64,000 nt of DNA, taken from NCBI GenBank assembly GCA_026386955.1, contig JAPLMQ010000312.1, positions 1 through 64,000 on the forward strand, in the 5' to 3' direction. Below, in pieces: positions 42,135 to 51,396 of this stretch. The notes under the pieces are model-generated. The model ran no database searches and was not told the origin of the DNA. It saw only the letters and a list, made by a program, of their open reading frames with translations. Both the position numbers and the translations under genes were made by a program. The first letter of the stretch is position 1. Each line of letters begins with the position of its first letter. The DNA comes from Planctomycetota bacterium. Its GTDB lineage: Bacteria; Planctomycetota; Phycisphaerae; Phycisphaerales; Phycisphaeraceae.

Positions 42135-43178
42135 ATGTCACGCAAGTCCTTAACTTTCCTCGGCTTGGGCCTCACCGCCCTGGTCGCCGGCCTGGCCGTC
42201 TTCACCCACGCCCCCGCGGCCCACGCCGCCCCTCCGGCACCGGTGCAACTGCTCAATGTCTCCTACGACCCGACCCGCGAACTCTACGTCGACTTCAACG
42301 CCCTCTTCGCCAAGGAATGGAAAAGCAAGACCCAGCAGGAGGTTACGATCCAGCAGTCGCACGGCGGATCGGGCAAGCAGGCCCGCGCGGTGATCGACGG
42401 GCTCGACGCCGACGTGGTCACCCTCGCCCTGGCCTACGACATCGACGCCATTGCCAAGAACGCCCAACTCCTCCCTGCCGACTGGCAGAAGCGGCTGCCC
42501 AACAACTCCTCGCCCTACACCTCGACGATCGTCTTCCTGGTCCGCAAGGGAAACCCCAAGGGGATCAAGGATTGGAACGACCTCGCCAAGCCGGGCGTCT
42601 CCGTGATCACGCCCAACCCCAATACCTCGGGCGGGGCCCGGTGGAACTACCTCGCGGCCTGGGGCTACGCCCTGCGGAACAACGGGAAGGACGAGGCGAA
42701 GGCGAAGGACTTCGTCGCGGCGATCTTCAAGAACGTGCCGGTGCTCGATTCGGGCGCCCGCGGCTCGACCACGACCTTCGTGCAGCGCGGGCTGGGCGAT
42801 GTGCTGATCGCCTGGGAAAACGAGGCCTTCCTCTCGCTCAAGGAGTTCGGGGCCGACAAGTTCGAGATCGTCTCCCCGCCGACGAGCATCCTCGCCGAGC
42901 CGCCCGTGGCGATCGTGGACAAGAACGTCGCGAAGCACGGGACCAAGGAGGTCGCCGAGGCCTACTTGAAGTTCCTCTACAGCGACGCCGGGCAGGAGGT
43001 GGCCGCGAAGAACTTCTACCGCCCGCGCAACGAGTCGGCGACGGGCAAGGCGGGCGTGGCCTTCCCCAAGATCGAGCTGTTCACCATCGACGAGGTCTTC
43101 GGCGGGTGGACCAAGGCCCAGGCGACGCACTTCGCCGACGGGGGCGTGTTCGACCAGATCGCCAAGGCGGGGAAGTGA
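42135..43178 (+). CDS. sbp: Sulfate/thiosulfate-binding protein of the ABC importer
   Basis: The 347-residue protein has a signal peptide (about 1-32, ending AAHA) and the features of the CysP/Sbp family: [40 protein letters not shown] (the anion-binding loop), [19 protein letters not shown] and [18 protein letters not shown]. It captures sulfate in the periplasm and delivers it to CysTW. AAGGAACC precedes the ATG. It is first in the row sbp-cysT-cysW-cysA and is followed by a stable intercistronic hairpin. Thiosulfate or molybdate cannot be excluded as ligands, but the sequence is most like sulfate binders. Confidence 0.93.
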
Positions 43179-43207
43179 CGCTGAGGTTCCATTGACCGCA
43201 TCCGAAC

Positions 43208-43238
43208 CCGCCCCGGGCTCAAACCGAGCCCGGGGCGG
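43208..43238 (+). promoter_or_regulatory. Intercistronic hairpin between sbp and cysT
   Basis: A perfect 13-bp GC stem (CCGCCCCGGGCTC, loop AAACC) without a T-run follows the sbp stop by 29 bp. Such hairpins between a binding protein gene and its permease genes usually protect the first part of the mRNA and lower the yield of the rest. Confidence 0.75.
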
Positions 43239-43279
43239 TAGGATGCCCGCCTTTCCGCCTTCTCCTTGAAACGCGCCGC

Positions 43280-44116
43280 ATGGCCTTCACATTCAAAAAG
43301 CGATCCGTCCTCCCCGGCTTCGGGCTGACGATGGGCTACACGATCCTCTACATGAGCCTGGTCGTGATGATCCCCCTCTCGGCCCTGGTCGCGAAGACCA
43401 TGACCGTCTCGTGGAGCCAGTTCTGGGAGACCGTCACCGACCCGCGCGTCGTCGCCTCGTACAAGATCACCTTCGGCGCCTCCGCCATCGCCGCGCTGGT
43501 CAACGGCTTCTTCGGGCTGATCGTCGCGTGGACGCTGGTGCGTTACAGCTTCCCGGGGAAGAAGATCGTCGACGCCATGGTCGACCTCCCCTTCGCGCTG
43601 CCCACCGCGGTCTCGGGCATCGCCCTCGCGGCCCTCTACGCCCCCTCGGGCTGGCTCGGCCGATGGCTCGACCCGCTGGGCATCAAAGGCGCTTATTCGC
43701 CGCTGGGCGTGACGCTGGCGCTGACCTTCATCGGGCTGCCCTTCGTGGTGCGCACGCTCCAGCCGGCGCTCGAGGACCTCGACGCCGAGGTGGAGGACGC
43801 CGCCGCCAGCCTCGGGGCCACGCGCCTGCAGACGTTCTGGCGCGTCATCCTCCCGACGGTCTTCCCCGCGCTGCTCACGGGCACGACGCTGGCCTTCGCG
43901 CGGGCCCTGGGCGAGTACGGCTCGGTCGTCTTCATCGCCGGGAACGTGCAGTACAGCACCGAGATCACCTCGCTCTTGATCATCTCCAAGCTCGAGCAGT
44001 ACGACTACACCGGCGCCACCTCGATCGCGGTGGTGATGCTCGTCTCCTCCTTCCTGCTGCTTCTGCTGATCAACATCCTGCAGCGCTGGAGCGGCCGCCG
44101 CCACAGCGGTGCGTGA
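43280..44116 (+). CDS. cysT: Sulfate ABC transporter permease CysT
   Basis: The 278-residue protein has six membrane segments and matches CysT/CysU: VLPGFGLTMGYTILYMSLVV, the DLPFALPTAVSGIALAALYA stretch and the ABC-coupling loop EVEDAAASLGATRLQTFWRV (EAA motif), then FARALGEYGSVVFIAGN. With CysW it forms the sulfate channel. The ATG at 43280 gives the family start FKKRSVLPGFGL. The next gene starts 3 bp after its stop, so the two are translationally linked. Confidence 0.94.
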   Translation: MAFTFKKRSVLPGFGLTMGYTILYMSLVVMIPLSALVAKTMTVSWSQFWETVTDPRVVASYKITFGASAIAALVNGFFGLIVAWTLVRYSFPGKKIVDAMVDLPFALPTAVSGIALAALYAPSGWLGRWLDPLGIKGAYSPLGVTLALTFIGLPFVVRTLQPALEDLDAEVEDAAASLGATRLQTFWRVILPTVFPALLTGTTLAFARALGEYGSVVFIAGNVQYSTEITSLLIISKLEQYDYTGATSIAVVMLVSSFLLLLLINILQRWSGRRHSGA

Positions 44117-44119
44117 ACC

Positions 44120-45064
44120 ATGTCGAACCCAACCCCCACCATCCCCGCCGCCGCTGCCACGGCCGCCTCCTCTTCCGGGGGCGCCCCCGGGCGCACCGCC
44201 GGCCCCGCCTCGCGCCACGCCCGGCGCGACCCCTGGTGGGTCCGGGCCACGCTCATCACCATCACGCTGCTCTTCCTGGGGCTGTTCCTCGCGCTGCCCC
44301 TCGCCTCCGTCATGGCAGAGGCATTGCGCAAGGGCGTCGGCGCCTACTTCGCCAGTTTCAACGACTCGGCAGCCCTCTCGGCGATCTACCTCACGCTGAT
44401 CTCCGCCGCACTTTCTGTCCCCACCAACCTGGTCTTCGGCGTCGCCGCGGCGTGGGCCATCGCCAAGTTCGAGTTCACCGGCAAGAGCCTGCTCATCAGC
44501 CTTATCGACCTGCCCTTCGCCATCTCCCCGGTCATCTCCGGGCTGATCTTCGTCCTGCTCTTCGGCCTGCAGGGCTGGATGGGCCCGTGGCTGCGCGAGC
44601 ACGACATCAAGATCATCTTCGCCGTCCCGGGCATCGTCCTCGCCACCGTCTTCGTCACCTTCCCCTTCGTCGCCCGCGAGCTGATCCCGCTCATGCAGGA
44701 GCAGGGCACCGACGAGGAGCAGGCCGCCCTGGTTTTGGGCGCGAACGGCTGGCAGACCTTCTGGCACGTCACGCTGCCCAACATCCGCTGGGCGCTGCTC
44801 TACGGCGTGATCCTCTGCAACGCCCGCGCGATGGGCGAGTTCGGCGCGGTCTCCGTCGTCTCAGGCCACATCCGCGGGCGCACCAACACGCTCCCGCTGC
44901 ACGTGGAGATCCTCTACAACGAATACAACTTCGTGGCGGCGTTCGCCACGGCCTCGCTCCTCGCCGGGCTGGCGATCCTCACGCTCGTCGCCAAGAGCGC
45001 CGTCGAGTGGCAGGTCGCCCGCCGCCGCAAGGCCAGCGCCGCGGAGAACGCGGCGGAGCATTGA
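44120..45064 (+). CDS. cysW: Sulfate ABC transporter permease CysW
   Basis: The 314-residue protein has six membrane segments and the CysW features DLPFAISPVISGLIFVLLFG, the EAA-loop variant DEEQAALVLGANGWQTFWHV and NARAMGEFGAVSVVSGHIRG, as well as PLHVEILYNEYNFVAAFATA. About 35 residues at the N-terminus (Pro/Ala/Gly-rich) exceed the family length and precede the first helix; they may be a natural extension or point to a later start. It pairs with CysT. A family C repeat pair separates it from cysA. Confidence 0.94.
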   Translation: MSNPTPTIPAAAATAASSSGGAPGRTAGPASRHARRDPWWVRATLITITLLFLGLFLALPLASVMAEALRKGVGAYFASFNDSAALSAIYLTLISAALSVPTNLVFGVAAAWAIAKFEFTGKSLLISLIDLPFAISPVISGLIFVLLFGLQGWMGPWLREHDIKIIFAVPGIVLATVFVTFPFVARELIPLMQEQGTDEEQAALVLGANGWQTFWHVTLPNIRWALLYGVILCNARAMGEFGAVSVVSGHIRGRTNTLPLHVEILYNEYNFVAAFATASLLAGLAILTLVAKSAVEWQVARRRKASAAENAAEH

Positions 45065-45078
45065 GCATTGATTGCGCA

Positions 45079-45201
45079 TTGTTAGCCGGACGCGCAAGCG
45101 ACGGAGGTTAGCCCGTGTCGACATCGACGTCCGAGATTTCCCGCGAGTCCATCTGACACCATCGAAAGAGAACATCCGTCGCTGGCGCGTCCGGCTAACA
45201 A
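45079..45201. repeat. Inverted-pair element, family C, within the sulfate operon
   Basis: TTGTTAGCCGGACGCGCAAG with CGACGG (45079-45104) faces its inverse CCGTCGCTGGCGCGTCCGGC with TAACAA (45176-45201). The arms differ at one position. The inner 70 bp is unrelated to other sequence. The element lies between cysW and cysA and could fold in the mRNA. Confidence 0.88.
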
Positions 45202-45232
45202 GACATCGACAAGACCCCAAAGAAGCACCGCC

Positions 45233-46309
45233 ATGAGCATCCAGGTCCGCCACGTCACGAAAACCTTCGGCCAATACGCCGCGCTCAAGGACGTCAACCT
45301 CGACATCCCCGACGGGGAACTCGTCGCGCTGCTGGGGCCGTCGGGCTCGGGCAAGACCACGCTGCTGCGGATCATCGCCGGGCTGGAGGTCCCCGACGCG
45401 AACCCGGAGACGCAGATCCTCTTCCACGACCAGGACGTCGCCGCGCGAGCGGTGGGCGACCGGCGCGTCGGCTTCGTCTTCCAGCATTACGCCCTCTTCC
45501 GCCACATGAGCGTCTTCGACAACATCGCCTTCGGGCTGCGCGTGCGCCCCCGGGCCAGCCGCCCGAGCAAGGGCGACATCCGGGCCCGCGTGCACGAGCT
45601 GCTCAAGCTCATCCAGCTCGAGAACCTCGGCGACCGCTACCCCTCCGAGCTCTCGGGCGGGCAGCGCCAGCGCGTCGCCCTCGCCCGCGCCCTAGCGATC
45701 GAGCCCAAGGTCCTCCTGCTCGACGAGCCATTCGGGGCCCTCGACGCGAAAGTCCGCCAAGGCCTCCGCCGCTGGCTGCGCGACCTGCACGACAAGATCC
45801 ACATCACCAGCGTGCTAGTCACCCACGACCAGGAGGAGGCGCTCGAGGTCGCCGACCGCGTGGTGGTGATGCGCCAGGCGCGGATCGAGCAGCAGGGCAC
45901 GCCCGAGGAGGTCTTCCATCACCCGGCGAGCGAGTTCGTGATGGACTTCCTGGGCCACGTGAACCTCTTCCACGGGCGCGTCGACGCCGGGCGGGCGGTC
46001 TTCGACGGGCTGGCGGTCGACCACGCCGCGGGCGACGCCGCCAATGGCAAGGCCGCGAAGCTCCTGGTCCGCCCGCACGAGCTGGAGCTGTTCCGCGAGC
46101 CCAACGGGAACCATTCGGTGAAGGCGACGGTCACGCGCGTCCACCGCGCGGGGCCGAGCGTGAAGGTCGAGCTCAACGGCCCCGAGGGGCGGGAGCTCTT
46201 CGTCGAGCTGACGCATGAGCGCTTCGCCCAGGCCCCCGTCGCCGCGGGCGACACGGCCTACGTCTCGCCCCGGGCGACCCGCGTCTTCGTGCAGGACTTC
46301 TCCATTTGA
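45233..46309 (+). CDS. cysA: Sulfate/thiosulfate ABC transporter ATPase CysA
   Basis: The 358-residue protein has Walker [10 protein letters not shown], signature [15 protein letters not shown], Walker [13 protein letters not shown], the D-loop and switch histidine [14 protein letters not shown], and a C-terminal TOBE-like regulatory domain ([26 protein letters not shown]). It starts [20 protein letters not shown] like other CysA proteins. It drives CysTW. It lies 168 bp after cysW, across a repeat element, and ends before the porin control region, so it may be less abundant or separately transcribed. Confidence 0.94.
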
Positions 46310-46573: not shown

Positions 46574-46603
46574 TTGACCCGTTGTATCGCCACGTATACA
46601 ACG
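46574..46603 (+). promoter_or_regulatory. Putative porin promoter overlapped by an inverted repeat
   Basis: TTGACC (46574-46579) is followed by TATACA at 46595-46600 (15-bp spacing) or TACAAC at 46598-46603 (18-bp spacing). The perfect 8-8-8 inverted repeat CGTTGTAT-cgccacgt-ATACAACG (46580-46603) covers the spacer and -10 region, as a repressor site would. Confidence 0.55.
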
Positions 46604-46663
46604 GACGCGCGGGCAGCCGGAATCGCCAGAATCGGAACCCGGCATCACCTAGGAGACTCTTTC

Positions 46664-48151
46664 ATGCAACGTTCCATCCAACACATCCTGGCCGGGTTCG
46701 CCCTGGCCGGGATTTCCGGGGTATCAGGCGTCGCCTCCGCGGCGCCGAGCAACGAAGACCTCGCCGCCGAGGTCAAGGCCCTGAAGGAAACCGTCCAGGC
46801 CCAGCAGGGCGAGATCCGCCAGCTCCGCAACGACAAGGGCGAGACCTGGCTCAACCAGCAGCGGGCCGAGGAGGTCAAAGCCCTGGTCCGCGACGTCCTC
46901 GCCGACGCCGACACCCGCGCCAGCCTCGCCGGCGACACCACCGTCACCGGCTACAAGAACGGCTTCATCATCGCCTCCGAGGACGGCGGGACCGTCCTGA
47001 AGATCAACGGGCAGGTCCAGGCCCGCTACATCACCAACTTCCGCAACAACTCCACCGGCTCGGGCGGCGGCAGCGGCCCCAAGCTCTCCGACGACGAGCA
47101 GGGCTTCCAGATCCGCCGGGCCCGCCTGATCTTCTCCGGCAACGTCGCCAACCCCAAGGTCGAATACCTCCTCCAGGGCACCGCCAACCGCGACACCGGC
47201 GGCTTCGACATCGAGAAGGCGGAGATCAGCTACGCCCTGCTCGACAACGTCAAGATCGGCGGCGGGCGCTACAAGGAGAACTTCCTCCGCGAGGAGTACG
47301 TCGGCGACGCCAAGCAGACCGCCGTCGAGCGCTCCGTCGTCGACCAGCTCTTCACCGCCAACTACGTCGAGGGCATCTACGGCGTCGTCGACGCCACCGA
47401 CTGGCTCCGCCTGACCACCTCGCTCACCGACGGGCTCCGCTCGGGCGATCCGGGCGGCAGCAACACCGGCTTCCTCAACGGCGGCAACGACTTCCACAAC
47501 GACTCCACCGGCCTCGCCGTCACCCTCCGCGGCGACGTCAAGCTCGCGGGCGACTGGAAGCAGGGCGAGGACTTCGCCGCCTGGTCCAAGGACAAGACCG
47601 GCGTCTTCCTCGGCGGCGCGGTCCACTACGAGCTCGCCAAGGCCGGCGACCTCCAGACCGCCGGCACCACCACCGTCACCGGCCCCTACGAGGACTTCTT
47701 CACCTACACCGGCGACGCCCTGGTCAAGACCGGCGGGCTGAGCCTCTTCGGCGCCTTCGTCGGGCAGAACATCCGCGCGACCGACACCGTCGCCCGCGGC
47801 GACCTCAACAACTACGGCGTCGTCGCCCAGGCGGGCTACTTCGTCATCCCCGACAAGCTCGAGCCCTTCTTCCGCTACGAGTGGATCCGCGTCGATCCCC
47901 GCGTCTCGGGAGCCGAGCAGGTCAACATCCTCACCGCGGGCGCCAACTACTACTTCAGCCCCCGCCACGTGAAGCTCTCGGTCGACGTGGTCTACGCCCT
48001 CCAACCCCTCACCGGCGTGAACACCCTGGGCGCCTCGGGCCCCTCGGGCTCGGGCCAGAGCACGGGCCTGACCGGCCTGGGCCTGCTGGGCGACAACTCC
48101 GGGCGCGACGAGCAAGTCGCGCTGCGGGCGCAGGTGCAGTTGACGTTCTGA
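46664..48151 (+). CDS. OprP/OprO-like outer-membrane porin
   Basis: The 495-residue protein has a signal peptide (to about residue 27, ASAAP), a coiled-coil stretch (about 30-60, EDLAAEVKALKETVQAQQGE), a spacer, and a beta-barrel beginning LKINGQVQARYITNF with FQIRRARLIFSGNVANPKVE, the pattern of the phosphate-selective OprP/OprO family. It ends QVALRAQVQLTF with a C-terminal aromatic residue, as outer-membrane proteins do. The N-terminal coiled coil is of the kind that attaches porins to the cell wall or forms trimers. TAGGAG precedes the ATG 46664. Its position after the sulfate operon suggests an anion (sulfate) channel, but selectivity is not readable. Confidence 0.87.
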   Translation: MQRSIQHILAGFALAGISGVSGVASAAPSNEDLAAEVKALKETVQAQQGEIRQLRNDKGETWLNQQRAEEVKALVRDVLADADTRASLAGDTTVTGYKNGFIIASEDGGTVLKINGQVQARYITNFRNNSTGSGGGSGPKLSDDEQGFQIRRARLIFSGNVANPKVEYLLQGTANRDTGGFDIEKAEISYALLDNVKIGGGRYKENFLREEYVGDAKQTAVERSVVDQLFTANYVEGIYGVVDATDWLRLTTSLTDGLRSGDPGGSNTGFLNGGNDFHNDSTGLAVTLRGDVKLAGDWKQGEDFAAWSKDKTGVFLGGAVHYELAKAGDLQTAGTTTVTGPYEDFFTYTGDALVKTGGLSLFGAFVGQNIRATDTVARGDLNNYGVVAQAGYFVIPDKLEPFFRYEWIRVDPRVSGAEQVNILTAGANYYFSPRHVKLSVDVVYALQPLTGVNTLGASGPSGSGQSTGLTGLGLLGDNSGRDEQVALRAQVQLTF

Positions 48152-48379: not shown

Positions 48380-50257
48380 ATGAGCACAGGCGTCTCCGCG
48401 GCCGCCCTTTGGGGGCGCATCGCGCTGCACAACAAGCTGCTGAACGATCAGCAGTGGAAGGAGTGCGTCGAGGTCTTCAAGAAGCTCGGAGGCAAGACGC
48501 CCATTGACCGCATTGCGGTGCACAAGGGCTTCGTGCAGGACAAGCACGCCGAGCTGATCTGCAAGAAGGTCGACGACATCCTCGCCAAGCAGGGCGGCGG
48601 CGAGGCGCCCGCGGCCCCCGACGCCCATCCGCCTGTGCCCCCTCCCTCCGTCGCCTCGGCATCGTCCGCAGCCGCGACGTCGCAGCGCTCGCAATCCCTC
48701 GCCAAACCGCCCCCGGCACCCCCCGCCAAGCCGGCCTCCCCCGCGGAAGACGACGACGAGCCGCTCGAACCTGAGGCAGAACCCGAGGCGGAACCCGAGA
48801 CGGGCGAGATTGACCTCGCCGGCGCCGAGCCGCAGGAAGCGTCGAAAGGCTGGCGGCCCAGCGACGCCGAGTGGGTCGAGGCCGAGCCCGCCGGCGCGGA
48901 GACCGGCAAGAAGGCTCGCTACGTCCTCGACGACGAATCGGTCGCACTCGTGGGCGACGACGAAATCGACGATGGCGGAAGGGCGAAGGCCGACGCTCCG
49001 GCAGGCGCCCCCGGTGAGAAGCCCAAGCCCAAGATCATTGTCCAGGAGATCAACCGGCTGAAGTCCTCGTTCGACGCGCCCAAGCTGCCCGGCGTCAAGC
49101 CGGCGCAGGCCGCCGCCCCGGTCGGCGGCCTGGTGACCGAACCGGCCGAAGGCGAGCGAGCCCCCTGCGAGGTCGCCCCCAACGACGTCCACCCCGACGC
49201 CCTCGAGATCCTCCGCAAGGGCGTCGCCCTGGGCGCCAGCGACGTCCACCTCGCCTCGGGCTCCCCGCCGTTCTACCGGCTGCACGGGCAACTGGTCTTC
49301 ACCGAGCTGCCCAAGCTCACGCCCGAGCTTGCCCGGCGGTACGTCCTGGGCTTCATGGACGACGCGCAGCAGCAGCGGTACCTCAAGCACCACGACCTGG
49401 ACTTCTCCTGGGAGCACCCCGAGATGGGGCGCTTCCGCGCCAACGCCCTCGAGCAATTCCGCGGGCCGGACGTCATCTTCCGCTGCATCGCCGCGAAGAT
49501 CCCCTCGCTCAAGGAGCTGGGCCTGCCCGAGACGCTGGCCCGCCTGACCGAGTGGCACCAGGGGCTGGTGCTCATCACCGGGCCCGCGGGCAGCGGCAAG
49601 ACCACCACCGCCGCGGCGATGGTCGACCTCATCAACTCGACGAGGCAGGACCACGTCATCACCGTCGAGGACCCGATCGAGGTCATCCACCCCTACAAGA
49701 GCTGCAACGTGACGCAGCGCCAGGTTCCGCGCGACACGGGCAGCTTCGCCTCGGCCCTCAAGGCGGCCCTGCGCGAGGACCCCGACGTCATCATGATCGG
49801 CGAGATGCGCGACCTCGAGACCGTCTCGCTGGCGATCCGCGCCGCCGAGACCGGCCACCTGGTCTTCGGCACCCTCCAGACCAAGAGCGCCGCCCGCACG
49901 ATCGACCGCGTGATCGACGTCTTCCCCGCCGACCAGCAGGCCCAGGTGCGCACCATGCTCTCGGAGTCGCTGCGCGGGATCATCTCGCAGCAGCTGATCA
50001 TCCGCGCCGACGGCAAGGGGCGCGTCCCCGCCATCGAGCTGCTCTTCGTCAACAACGCCGTCTCCAACCTCATCCGCGACTCCAAGACGTTCCAACTTCC
50101 CTCGCTGATGCAGACCGGCCGAAAGGTCGGGCACAAGCTCATGGACGAGTCGCTCCAGGAGCTGCTCGCCAAGGGCATCATCACCCGCGAGGAGGCCATC
50201 AAGGCCGCCGAGAGCCCCAAGCACTTCAAGGAAGAGCCCGCCGGCGCCAAGAAATAG
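48380..50257 (+). CDS. PilT/PilB-type secretion ATPase with degenerate His box and long N-terminus
   Basis: The protein has 625 residues against about 350 for PilT. The first 270 residues are a small helical domain (WGRIALHNKLLNDQQWKECV) and a Pro/Ala/Glu-rich linker. The motor follows: ALGASDVHLASGSPPFYRLH, Walker A GPAGSGKTTTAAA, Asp box VITVEDPIEV, Walker B DPDVIMIGEMRDLET. The usual His box FGTLHTNSA reads FGTLQTKSA here, so the His and Asn of the box are replaced. The AIRNLIRE-like signal is present as AVSNLIRDSK. It is directly followed by a PilT with an intact His box (50329). It may act as an accessory (PilU-like) retraction ATPase of type IV pili. The ATG at 48380 opens the helical domain. 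Confidence 0.85.
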   Translation: MSTGVSAAALWGRIALHNKLLNDQQWKECVEVFKKLGGKTPIDRIAVHKGFVQDKHAELICKKVDDILAKQGGGEAPAAPDAHPPVPPPSVASASSAAATSQRSQSLAKPPPAPPAKPASPAEDDDEPLEPEAEPEAEPETGEIDLAGAEPQEASKGWRPSDAEWVEAEPAGAETGKKARYVLDDESVALVGDDEIDDGGRAKADAPAGAPGEKPKPKIIVQEINRLKSSFDAPKLPGVKPAQAAAPVGGLVTEPAEGERAPCEVAPNDVHPDALEILRKGVALGASDVHLASGSPPFYRLHGQLVFTELPKLTPELARRYVLGFMDDAQQQRYLKHHDLDFSWEHPEMGRFRANALEQFRGPDVIFRCIAAKIPSLKELGLPETLARLTEWHQGLVLITGPAGSGKTTTAAAMVDLINSTRQDHVITVEDPIEVIHPYKSCNVTQRQVPRDTGSFASALKAALREDPDVIMIGEMRDLETVSLAIRAAETGHLVFGTLQTKSAARTIDRVIDVFPADQQAQVRTMLSESLRGIISQQLIIRADGKGRVPAIELLFVNNAVSNLIRDSKTFQLPSLMQTGRKVGHKLMDESLQELLAKGIITREEAIKAAESPKHFKEEPAGAKK

Positions 50258-50328
50258 GCCCGAAGCTGGCCCGCCCGCGCCGCCCCGACCACCGCCCTTC
50301 GCTCCGCCCACCGCATGGACCGCCCATC

Positions 50329-51396
50329 ATGGCCAAGATCGACGCCCTGTTTCGGATGGTGAAGGAGAAGAAGGCCAGCGACCTTCACATGCTCCAGGGC
50401 CTGCCGCCCAAGCTGCGCGTCCACGGCGACCTCGAGGCCATCGAGGGCCACCCCATCCTCACCGAAGAGAGCCTCAAGGAATACCTCCACGAGATCGCCC
50501 GCCCCGACCAGATCGCCAAGTACGAGACCACCGGCGACCTGGACTTCGCCTACGGGCTCGAGGGCGTCGCCCGCTTCCGCTGCAACTACCTCAAGCAGGT
50601 CCACGGGCGCGGGGCCGTCTTCCGCCAGATCCCCGACAAGATCCTCACCGTCGACGACCTGGGCATGCCCAAGGCCATCTCCGCGCTGGCCCACCTGCGC
50701 AGCGGGCTGGTGCTGGTCACCGGGCCCACCGGCTCGGGCAAGTCGACGACCCTCGCCGCCGTGATCGACCTGATCAACCGCACCTACAAGAAGCACGTCA
50801 TCACGATCGAGGACCCGATCGAGTTCGTGCACGAGAACCGCAACTCGGTGATCACCCAGCGCGAGGTGGGCTTCCACACCGACGGTTTCGCCGAGGCGCT
50901 GCGGGCCGCGGTGCGCGAGGACCCGGACGTGATCCTCGTGGGCGAAATGCGCGACTTGGAGACCATCAGCCTAGCGCTGACCGCCGCCGAGCTGGGCCTG
51001 CTGGTCTTCGGGACGCTGCACACCAACTCCGCGGCCAAGACCATCGACCGCGTGATCGACGTCTTCCCCGCCAGCCGCCAGCCGATGGTGCGCACGATGC
51101 TCGCCGAGAGCGTCGCGGCGATCGTCTCGCAGTTGCTGCTCAAGAAGAAGGACGGGAAGGGGCGCGTGGCGGCGCTGGAGATCCTGCTCCGCAAGGAAGG
51201 CATGAGCAACATGATCCGCGAAGGCGCGATCTCCAAGATCCTTTCGCTGATGGAGACCAGCCGGGCGGATGGGATGCAGCTCATGGACCACCACCTGATG
51301 ACGCTCTACCGCGACGGCGCGATCGACGGCAACGCCGCCTACATGAAGGCGTTCAACAAGTCGGCGTTCGAGCCGTACCGCACGGCGGAGCTCTAG
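50329..51396 (+). CDS. pilT: Twitching motility retraction ATPase PilT
   Basis: The 355-residue protein is a standard PilT: KKASDLHMLQGLPPKLRVHG at the N-terminus, Walker A GPTGSGKSTT, Asp box VITIEDPIEFVHE, Walker B EDPDVILVGEMRDLET, His box FGTLHTNSAAKTIDR and the C-terminal signal GMSNMIREGAI (AIRNLIRE class). It retracts type IV pili by removing pilin subunits. The ATG at 50329 follows the first ATPase gene by 71 bp. The two proteins probably act on the same pilus motor. No other pilus genes are in the window. Confidence 0.92.
   Translation: MAKIDALFRMVKEKKASDLHMLQGLPPKLRVHGDLEAIEGHPILTEESLKEYLHEIARPDQIAKYETTGDLDFAYGLEGVARFRCNYLKQVHGRGAVFRQIPDKILTVDDLGMPKAISALAHLRSGLVLVTGPTGSGKSTTLAAVIDLINRTYKKHVITIEDPIEFVHENRNSVITQREVGFHTDGFAEALRAAVREDPDVILVGEMRDLETISLALTAAELGLLVFGTLHTNSAAKTIDRVIDVFPASRQPMVRTMLAESVAAIVSQLLLKKKDGKGRVAALEILLRKEGMSNMIREGAISKILSLMETSRADGMQLMDHHLMTLYRDGAIDGNAAYMKAFNKSAFEPYRTAEL

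Follow-up and report, generated by a model that had tools for sequence, protein, structure and literature searches.

Two neighbouring genes in the 64,000-nucleotide stretch of Planctomycetota DNA analysed here (the window) encode PilT-family ATPases, A and B, whose altered residues lie on opposite sides of the ATP site that the family forms between adjacent subunits. We consider that A and B probably build one mixed PilT-type motor, most likely an alternating hexamer in which only the ATP site of B, completed by A, would be intact, and we put the probability of this reading at about 0.6. What is new here, judging from the sequences, is a pair of PilT-family subunits with apparently complementary half-sites, and the His-box change of A appears as one part of this larger pattern.

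The genes are tandem PilT-family ORFs, both intact and on the + strand with 71 bases between them, in a draft assembly of 6.47 Mb and 316 contigs. Their features are as follows, with the family's residues numbered here and below as in Geobacter metallireducens PilT:

48380..50257, + strand: gene A, PilT-family ATPase with N-terminal extension, 625 aa
48380..48598, + strand: N-terminal helical domain of A, aa 1-73 (AlphaFold2 pLDDT ~90; HMM of 21 copies)
48599..49192, + strand: low-complexity linker of A, about aa 74-271, predicted disordered (pLDDT <50 over most of 73-256)
49205..50221, + strand: PilT core of A, aa 276-614 (TIGR01420 match; Foldseek match to PilT4, 6ok2, E 8e-40)
49580..49603, + strand: Walker A of A, GPAGSGKT, read from the sequence; the T133 equivalent is Ala403, codon 49586
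49841..49882, + strand: His box of A, AAETGHLVFGTLQT; T491 and H493 kept, second His replaced by Gln500
50329..51396, + strand: gene B, PilT-family ATPase, 355 aa, start ATG at 50329
50722..50745, + strand: Walker A of B, GPTGSGKS, standard
50983..51024, + strand: His box of B, AAELGLLVFGTLHT; T221 and H223 equivalents are Leu222 and Leu224, second His (His231) kept

The original prediction of paired PilT-type ATPases is borne out by the two tandem intact ORFs, both of which pass the curated TIGR01420 pilT_fam cut-off of 319.1 bits (A, 431.6; B, 437.9), and its extension of about 270 residues on the first protein agrees with a PilT core in A that begins near residue 276. The Walker A Lys, the Walker B Glu and the Asp-box Glu are all present in both proteins. 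The two-histidine His box of the TIGR01420 family is found in neither, A being without the second His and B without the first; A and B score as members of the family, yet by sequence they are not canonical PilT. Upstream of the pair is an ORF of the phosphate-selective porin O/P family (46574-48151; Pfam Porin_O_P), and before this are ORFs that by eye resemble an anion ABC transporter (42135-46309).

The typical PilT His box is AETGHLVFGTLHT, and the corresponding sequences are AETGHLVFGTLQT in A and AELGLLVFGTLHT in B. The FGTLQTKSA of A, to which attention had been drawn together with a proposal to check its conservation, lies at 49865-49891 with the Gln codon CAG at 49877; TLQTKSA is present in 9/9 same-family A orthologues, which rules out a private mutation, and because both genes are intact and conserved in 9 genomes a sequencing error or pseudogene is ruled out too. 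A further change in A had been missed, in that its Walker A is GPAGSGK and not the usual GPTGSGK (Ala for Thr, codon 49586). The second protein had been described as standard, and this proved incorrect: B reads AAELGLLVFGTLHTNSA at the site where PilT has AAETGHLVFGTLHT, its T221 and first-His equivalents both being Leu (codons 50992 and 50998) and conserved in orthologues, such that B keeps the second histidine but not the first, nor the threonine that precedes this by two residues. The remaining catalytic residues compared are unchanged in both proteins. Because both subunits are altered, and on opposite faces of one interface, the picture of a degenerate helper beside a normal PilT is wrong; the earlier suggestion of a weakly active or regulatory A in a mixed motor stands as to the mixed motor and a plausibly weak or non-catalytic A, but not as to one degenerate and one normal subunit.

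The positions of these residues can be read from structures of related motors. In closed PilT interfaces H230-T221 and T221-T133 contacts are made between chains, and a proton shuttle E204-H230-T221 has been proposed, in which a proton leaving the catalytic Glu would reach the T221 of the adjoining subunit by way of H230 (PMC6858323). In PilB, H420 (the H230 equivalent) is in contact both with the gamma-phosphate and with T411 (T221) of the neighbouring subunit (PMC5424180). The DotB interface is formed likewise, CTDn contributing its Walker A region and His260 (H230), which meet Thr251 (T221) and His253 (H223) of CTDn+1 (PMC6153414). T133 and H230 therefore make up the ATP side, and T221 and H223 the neighbour side.

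As the structures of PilT, PilB and DotB show, an ATP site of this family is shared by two neighbouring subunits, with Walker A (including T133), the catalytic Glu and H230 coming from the subunit that holds the ATP, and T221 and H223 supplied by the next one. If A and B alternated around the ring (A-B-A-B), each of three B sites would be completed by an adjacent A and so possess the full set of residues, while each of three A sites, with a B as its neighbour, would be without T133, H230, T221 and H223 together. ATP would be hydrolysed at the B sites, with the A sites binding nucleotide and hydrolysing it slowly or not at all, and rings of A only or B only would be unable to function normally. 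An alternating ring is the simplest account of changes on one face in A and on the opposite face in B, and since A loses H230 and B the neighbour side, a homohexamer of either protein from the window's family would contain no complete site. The job of such a motor is likely the retraction of a type IV pilus-like filament, going by family membership only.

The same mirrored losses are seen in relatives of the two proteins. Proteins were classified with profiles in which the trait columns had been masked, giving 46 unique A proteins, 43 unique B proteins and 179 unique other PilT-like proteins, a set that may contain a few extension-type ATPases. On the neighbour side, T221 and H223 are each kept in 46/46 A proteins, and on the ATP side T133 is lost in 44/46 and H230 in 12/46 (nine Gln, two Pro and one Ala). 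The B proteins present the reverse, with T133 kept in 42/42 and H230 in 43/43, H223 lost in 43/43 (to 11 different residues) and T221 lost in 34/43. The other PilT-like proteins (n = 179) retain T221 in 173, H223 in 168, H230 in 175 and T133 in 153. The alteration of B is thus older and wider than the loss of H230 in A (43/43 versus 12/46), which has occurred independently three times within A, to Gln (as in the window), to Pro (G150 and G170) and to Ala (G113).

Trees were built without the trait columns; they leave out fragments and near-copies, one also leaving out 16 among the standard same-family loci and another L021-L037. A and B form two separate single clades (SH-aLRT 98 and 97). Letter changes counted on a tree of this kind are confined within A to T133 (14) and H230 (three), with zero at each of T221 and H223, and within B to H223 (16) and T221 (five), with zero at each of T133 and H230. 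The tree-counted changes on the ATP side versus the neighbour side are therefore 17 versus 0 in A and 0 versus 21 in B, a division with a chance of 1/C(38,17) = 3.5e-11 were the changes dealt randomly. The losses of opposite halves in A and B, across several phyla, suggest one mixed ring over two separate rings.

An unbiased scan of columns points to the same interface. Among 59 columns at least 93% conserved in 97 other PilTs, a comparison with 21 A and 17 B rows showed seven at which A or B departs from the rest: E178, T221, H223, H230, Q252, L261 and M314. E178, T221 and H230 are named as inter-subunit contacts in PilT (PMC6858323), and the H223 equivalent of DotB is likewise described as one (PMC6153414), matching the H223 of the scan. 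T133 is missing from the deviating columns because it varies among the other PilTs, 26/179 not having Thr. Loss of H223 by itself is weakened as a mark of a heteromer, as it is found in 11/179 other PilTs too (e.g. L249 and L222), and for this reason the case for a heteromer is built on the mirror-image changes of all four sites; two such proteins, those of G152 and G124, had no recognisable complementary partner in the set of PilTs read. These variations at T133 and H223 outside the pair are themselves points against a mixed ring. We also noted that A133 is V, I or L in 8/9 pairs in which B221 is T and in 0/30 others, although this covariation is suggestive and not significant in a test that lacked power, with 3/3 informative independent pairs concordant (p 0.25) and the trait picked after seeing the table.

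The variability of H223 would also suit an unlikely alternative, in which the Gln of A is a tolerated substitution, the changes in B mark relaxed positions, and the two are ordinary, independent PilT paralogues. The Walker A Lys and the Asp-box E160 and E164 are kept in 46/46 A proteins and the same positions are kept in B, and the Walker B catalytic Glu is present in 44/46 A proteins (Asp in two) and is Asp in 1/43 B proteins, all in favour of this alternative. Against it, H229A (the H230 equivalent) abolished twitching in P. aeruginosa (PMC6858323), and A has also changed H230 to Pro and Ala; H230 is lost in 0/43 B proteins and T221 or H223 in 0/46 A proteins.

A more serious, though still doubtful, competitor is that each protein makes a homohexamer of its own and both rings act on the same platform in the manner of PilT and PilU, A being the principal motor of most lineages and B a degenerate accessory to it. 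T221, H223 and H230 are all kept in the 34/46 A proteins that retain H230, such that in the majority of lineages A may be active by itself. The published work on PilT and PilU, which describes them as separate homohexamers (PMC6821130, PMC6762196), favours rings of one subunit type. Neither ring would have an intact site, however, in the window's family, in f52 (G150 and G170) or in one G113 pair, where the genes are nevertheless conserved, and the location of the changes on opposite faces is left without a reason. The analogy with a PilU helper, raised in the original prediction, does not hold here: the PilU proteins of V. cholerae and P. aeruginosa keep both contact sides (T218/H227 and T220/H229, respectively; PMC13142100), whereas A is without the His of this contact and B without the Thr.

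The distribution of the two genes bears further on the mixed motor. Pairs of A and B were found in Planctomycetota, in Verrucomicrobiota and in two contigs labelled Nitrospirae. In the window's family A is present in 9/51 genomes and B in the same 9, with B at 75-100% identity in 8/9 and the B of G049 a fragment running off a contig end; all of the readable B genes carry ELGLLV. Across the phylum A and B occur together in the same 19/79 genomes, and among the matches read in this sample, which took in some but not all of the weaker ones, no single-partner genome was classified. There are 39 unique adjacent pairs with A first in all; the adjacency script sought only same-strand pairs in which A precedes B, and the locus listings show none in the opposite order. 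In G106 and G130 the two genes are on different contigs at or near contig ends, while in G101 and in one G113 set they are on different contigs away from contig ends, and the unlinked genes of G101 and G113, together with a ratio of two A to one B in RI_212 (G063), are points against a mixed ring. In this last genome (Phycisphaera sp. RI_212, L042:3912-9076) three consecutive PilT genes comprise a B-type gene and a pair of A-type genes, and both A proteins retain the second His (TLHTKSA).

The window's genome has further PilTs with an intact His box (L007 and L166), and these could perform retraction if the pair were instead a nucleotide-sensing regulator with the N-terminal domain of A as its output. 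No pilus genes were recognised by eye beside the pair in the ORF lists of 12 loci, which would agree with such a role. We regard it as very improbable, since B keeps every catalytic residue and A its trans residues, and selection should not hold these in a regulator that does not hydrolyse ATP. Returning to the mixed motor, the chances seem to us about even that the pairs represent a new and widespread kind of PilT motor, an obligate heterohexamer with split sites, in which B would hydrolyse ATP only with the T221 and H223 of A in trans, and A would be purely structural in some lineages, as its three losses of H230 suggest.

The N-terminal extension of A begins with a helical domain, modelled by AlphaFold2 with helices at 3-17, 23-35, 42-48 and 54-71, that is common to most Planctomycetota A proteins and doubled in G059, G063 and G071. 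A Pfam search with the extension gave no match at 0.05, and an HMM of it weakly matches the N-termini of long T2SSE-type ORFs (best 1.4e-4, L102; 0.02 for L006 of the same genome); the N-terminal domain type compared is T2SSE_N/MshEN. Foldseek with the A model gave PilT/PilB/DotB-type motor chains only, among the matches listed, and is uninformative on the N-terminal domain. A copy of the domain (E 4e-8) is seen in a 297-residue ORF upstream of A in G099 (L186:2452-3342). A docking or regulatory function for it is a guess; on its long flexible linker it might, speculatively, place such a module on every second subunit of the ring.

Compared with known systems, A and B share with the PilT retraction ATPases (PilT4 of G. 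metallireducens, 6ok2; P. aeruginosa, 3jvu) the fold and family, the Walker A Lys, the Walker B Glu, the Asp box and the arginines, and the core of A is 45-49% identical to PilT chains among the matches listed. Known PilT is a homohexamer with both interface halves in one chain, whereas A and B carry one half each. PilT and PilU resemble them as two retraction-type ATPases encoded side by side, but the losses in A and B are mutual and complementary. The DotB protein of the Dot/Icm system has a homologous interface, with the first His and the Thr assigned to the neighbour (PMC6153414), but it is a single gene product that alternates in conformation and not in sequence. The behaviour proposed for A and B is like that of the alpha/beta ring of F1-ATPase, in which catalytic and non-catalytic homologous subunits alternate; the families are unrelated and this is an analogy only.

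Several other unusual PilT genes were seen. A Cloacimonadota pair outside the A and B clades (L105:4959-6038 and L105:6023-7102) is in the reverse order, the first gene being B-like (AEMGNLV..TLHT) and the second A-like (AETGHLV..TMHT, with Ser at T133), and is a possible independent origin of the same split. G098 (L223/L283) and G129 (L221/L284) each have an unlinked PilT with a changed neighbour side (AEVGTLV or AETGQLV) and TLHT kept, and also one PilT with AETGHLV..TMQT, where the second His is Gln; these are possible unlinked complementary partners. With the Cloacimonadota pair they raise the prospect that subunits divided the work in this way on several separate occasions. Two Omnitrophota PilT-like ORFs (L050:4893-6548 and L117:2403-4049) are without both His-box histidines (ETGILVFATMAT and EAGTLVIGTMPT), and the one in L050 adjoins a standard PilT. 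In L151:2-1147 and L154:207-1490 a second gene beside a standard PilT has an odd box (EN-YLVLSTYQ and EN-YLVLATFQ), apparently another kind of degenerate pair.

A literature search with subscription papers and preprints outside its scope found no description of such a complementary PilT pair. Mixed rings of type IV filament ATPases have been argued for, as possible in this ATPase superfamily (PMC6711533), and against (PMC6821130, PMC6762196). A natural pair with opposite contact halves lost makes this question testable using two genes. If the mixed motor proposed here is correct, it would also test the E204-H230-T221 proton shuttle, as three of its six sites would naturally be without it, and the stepping order of the motor would be readable with the sites fixed.
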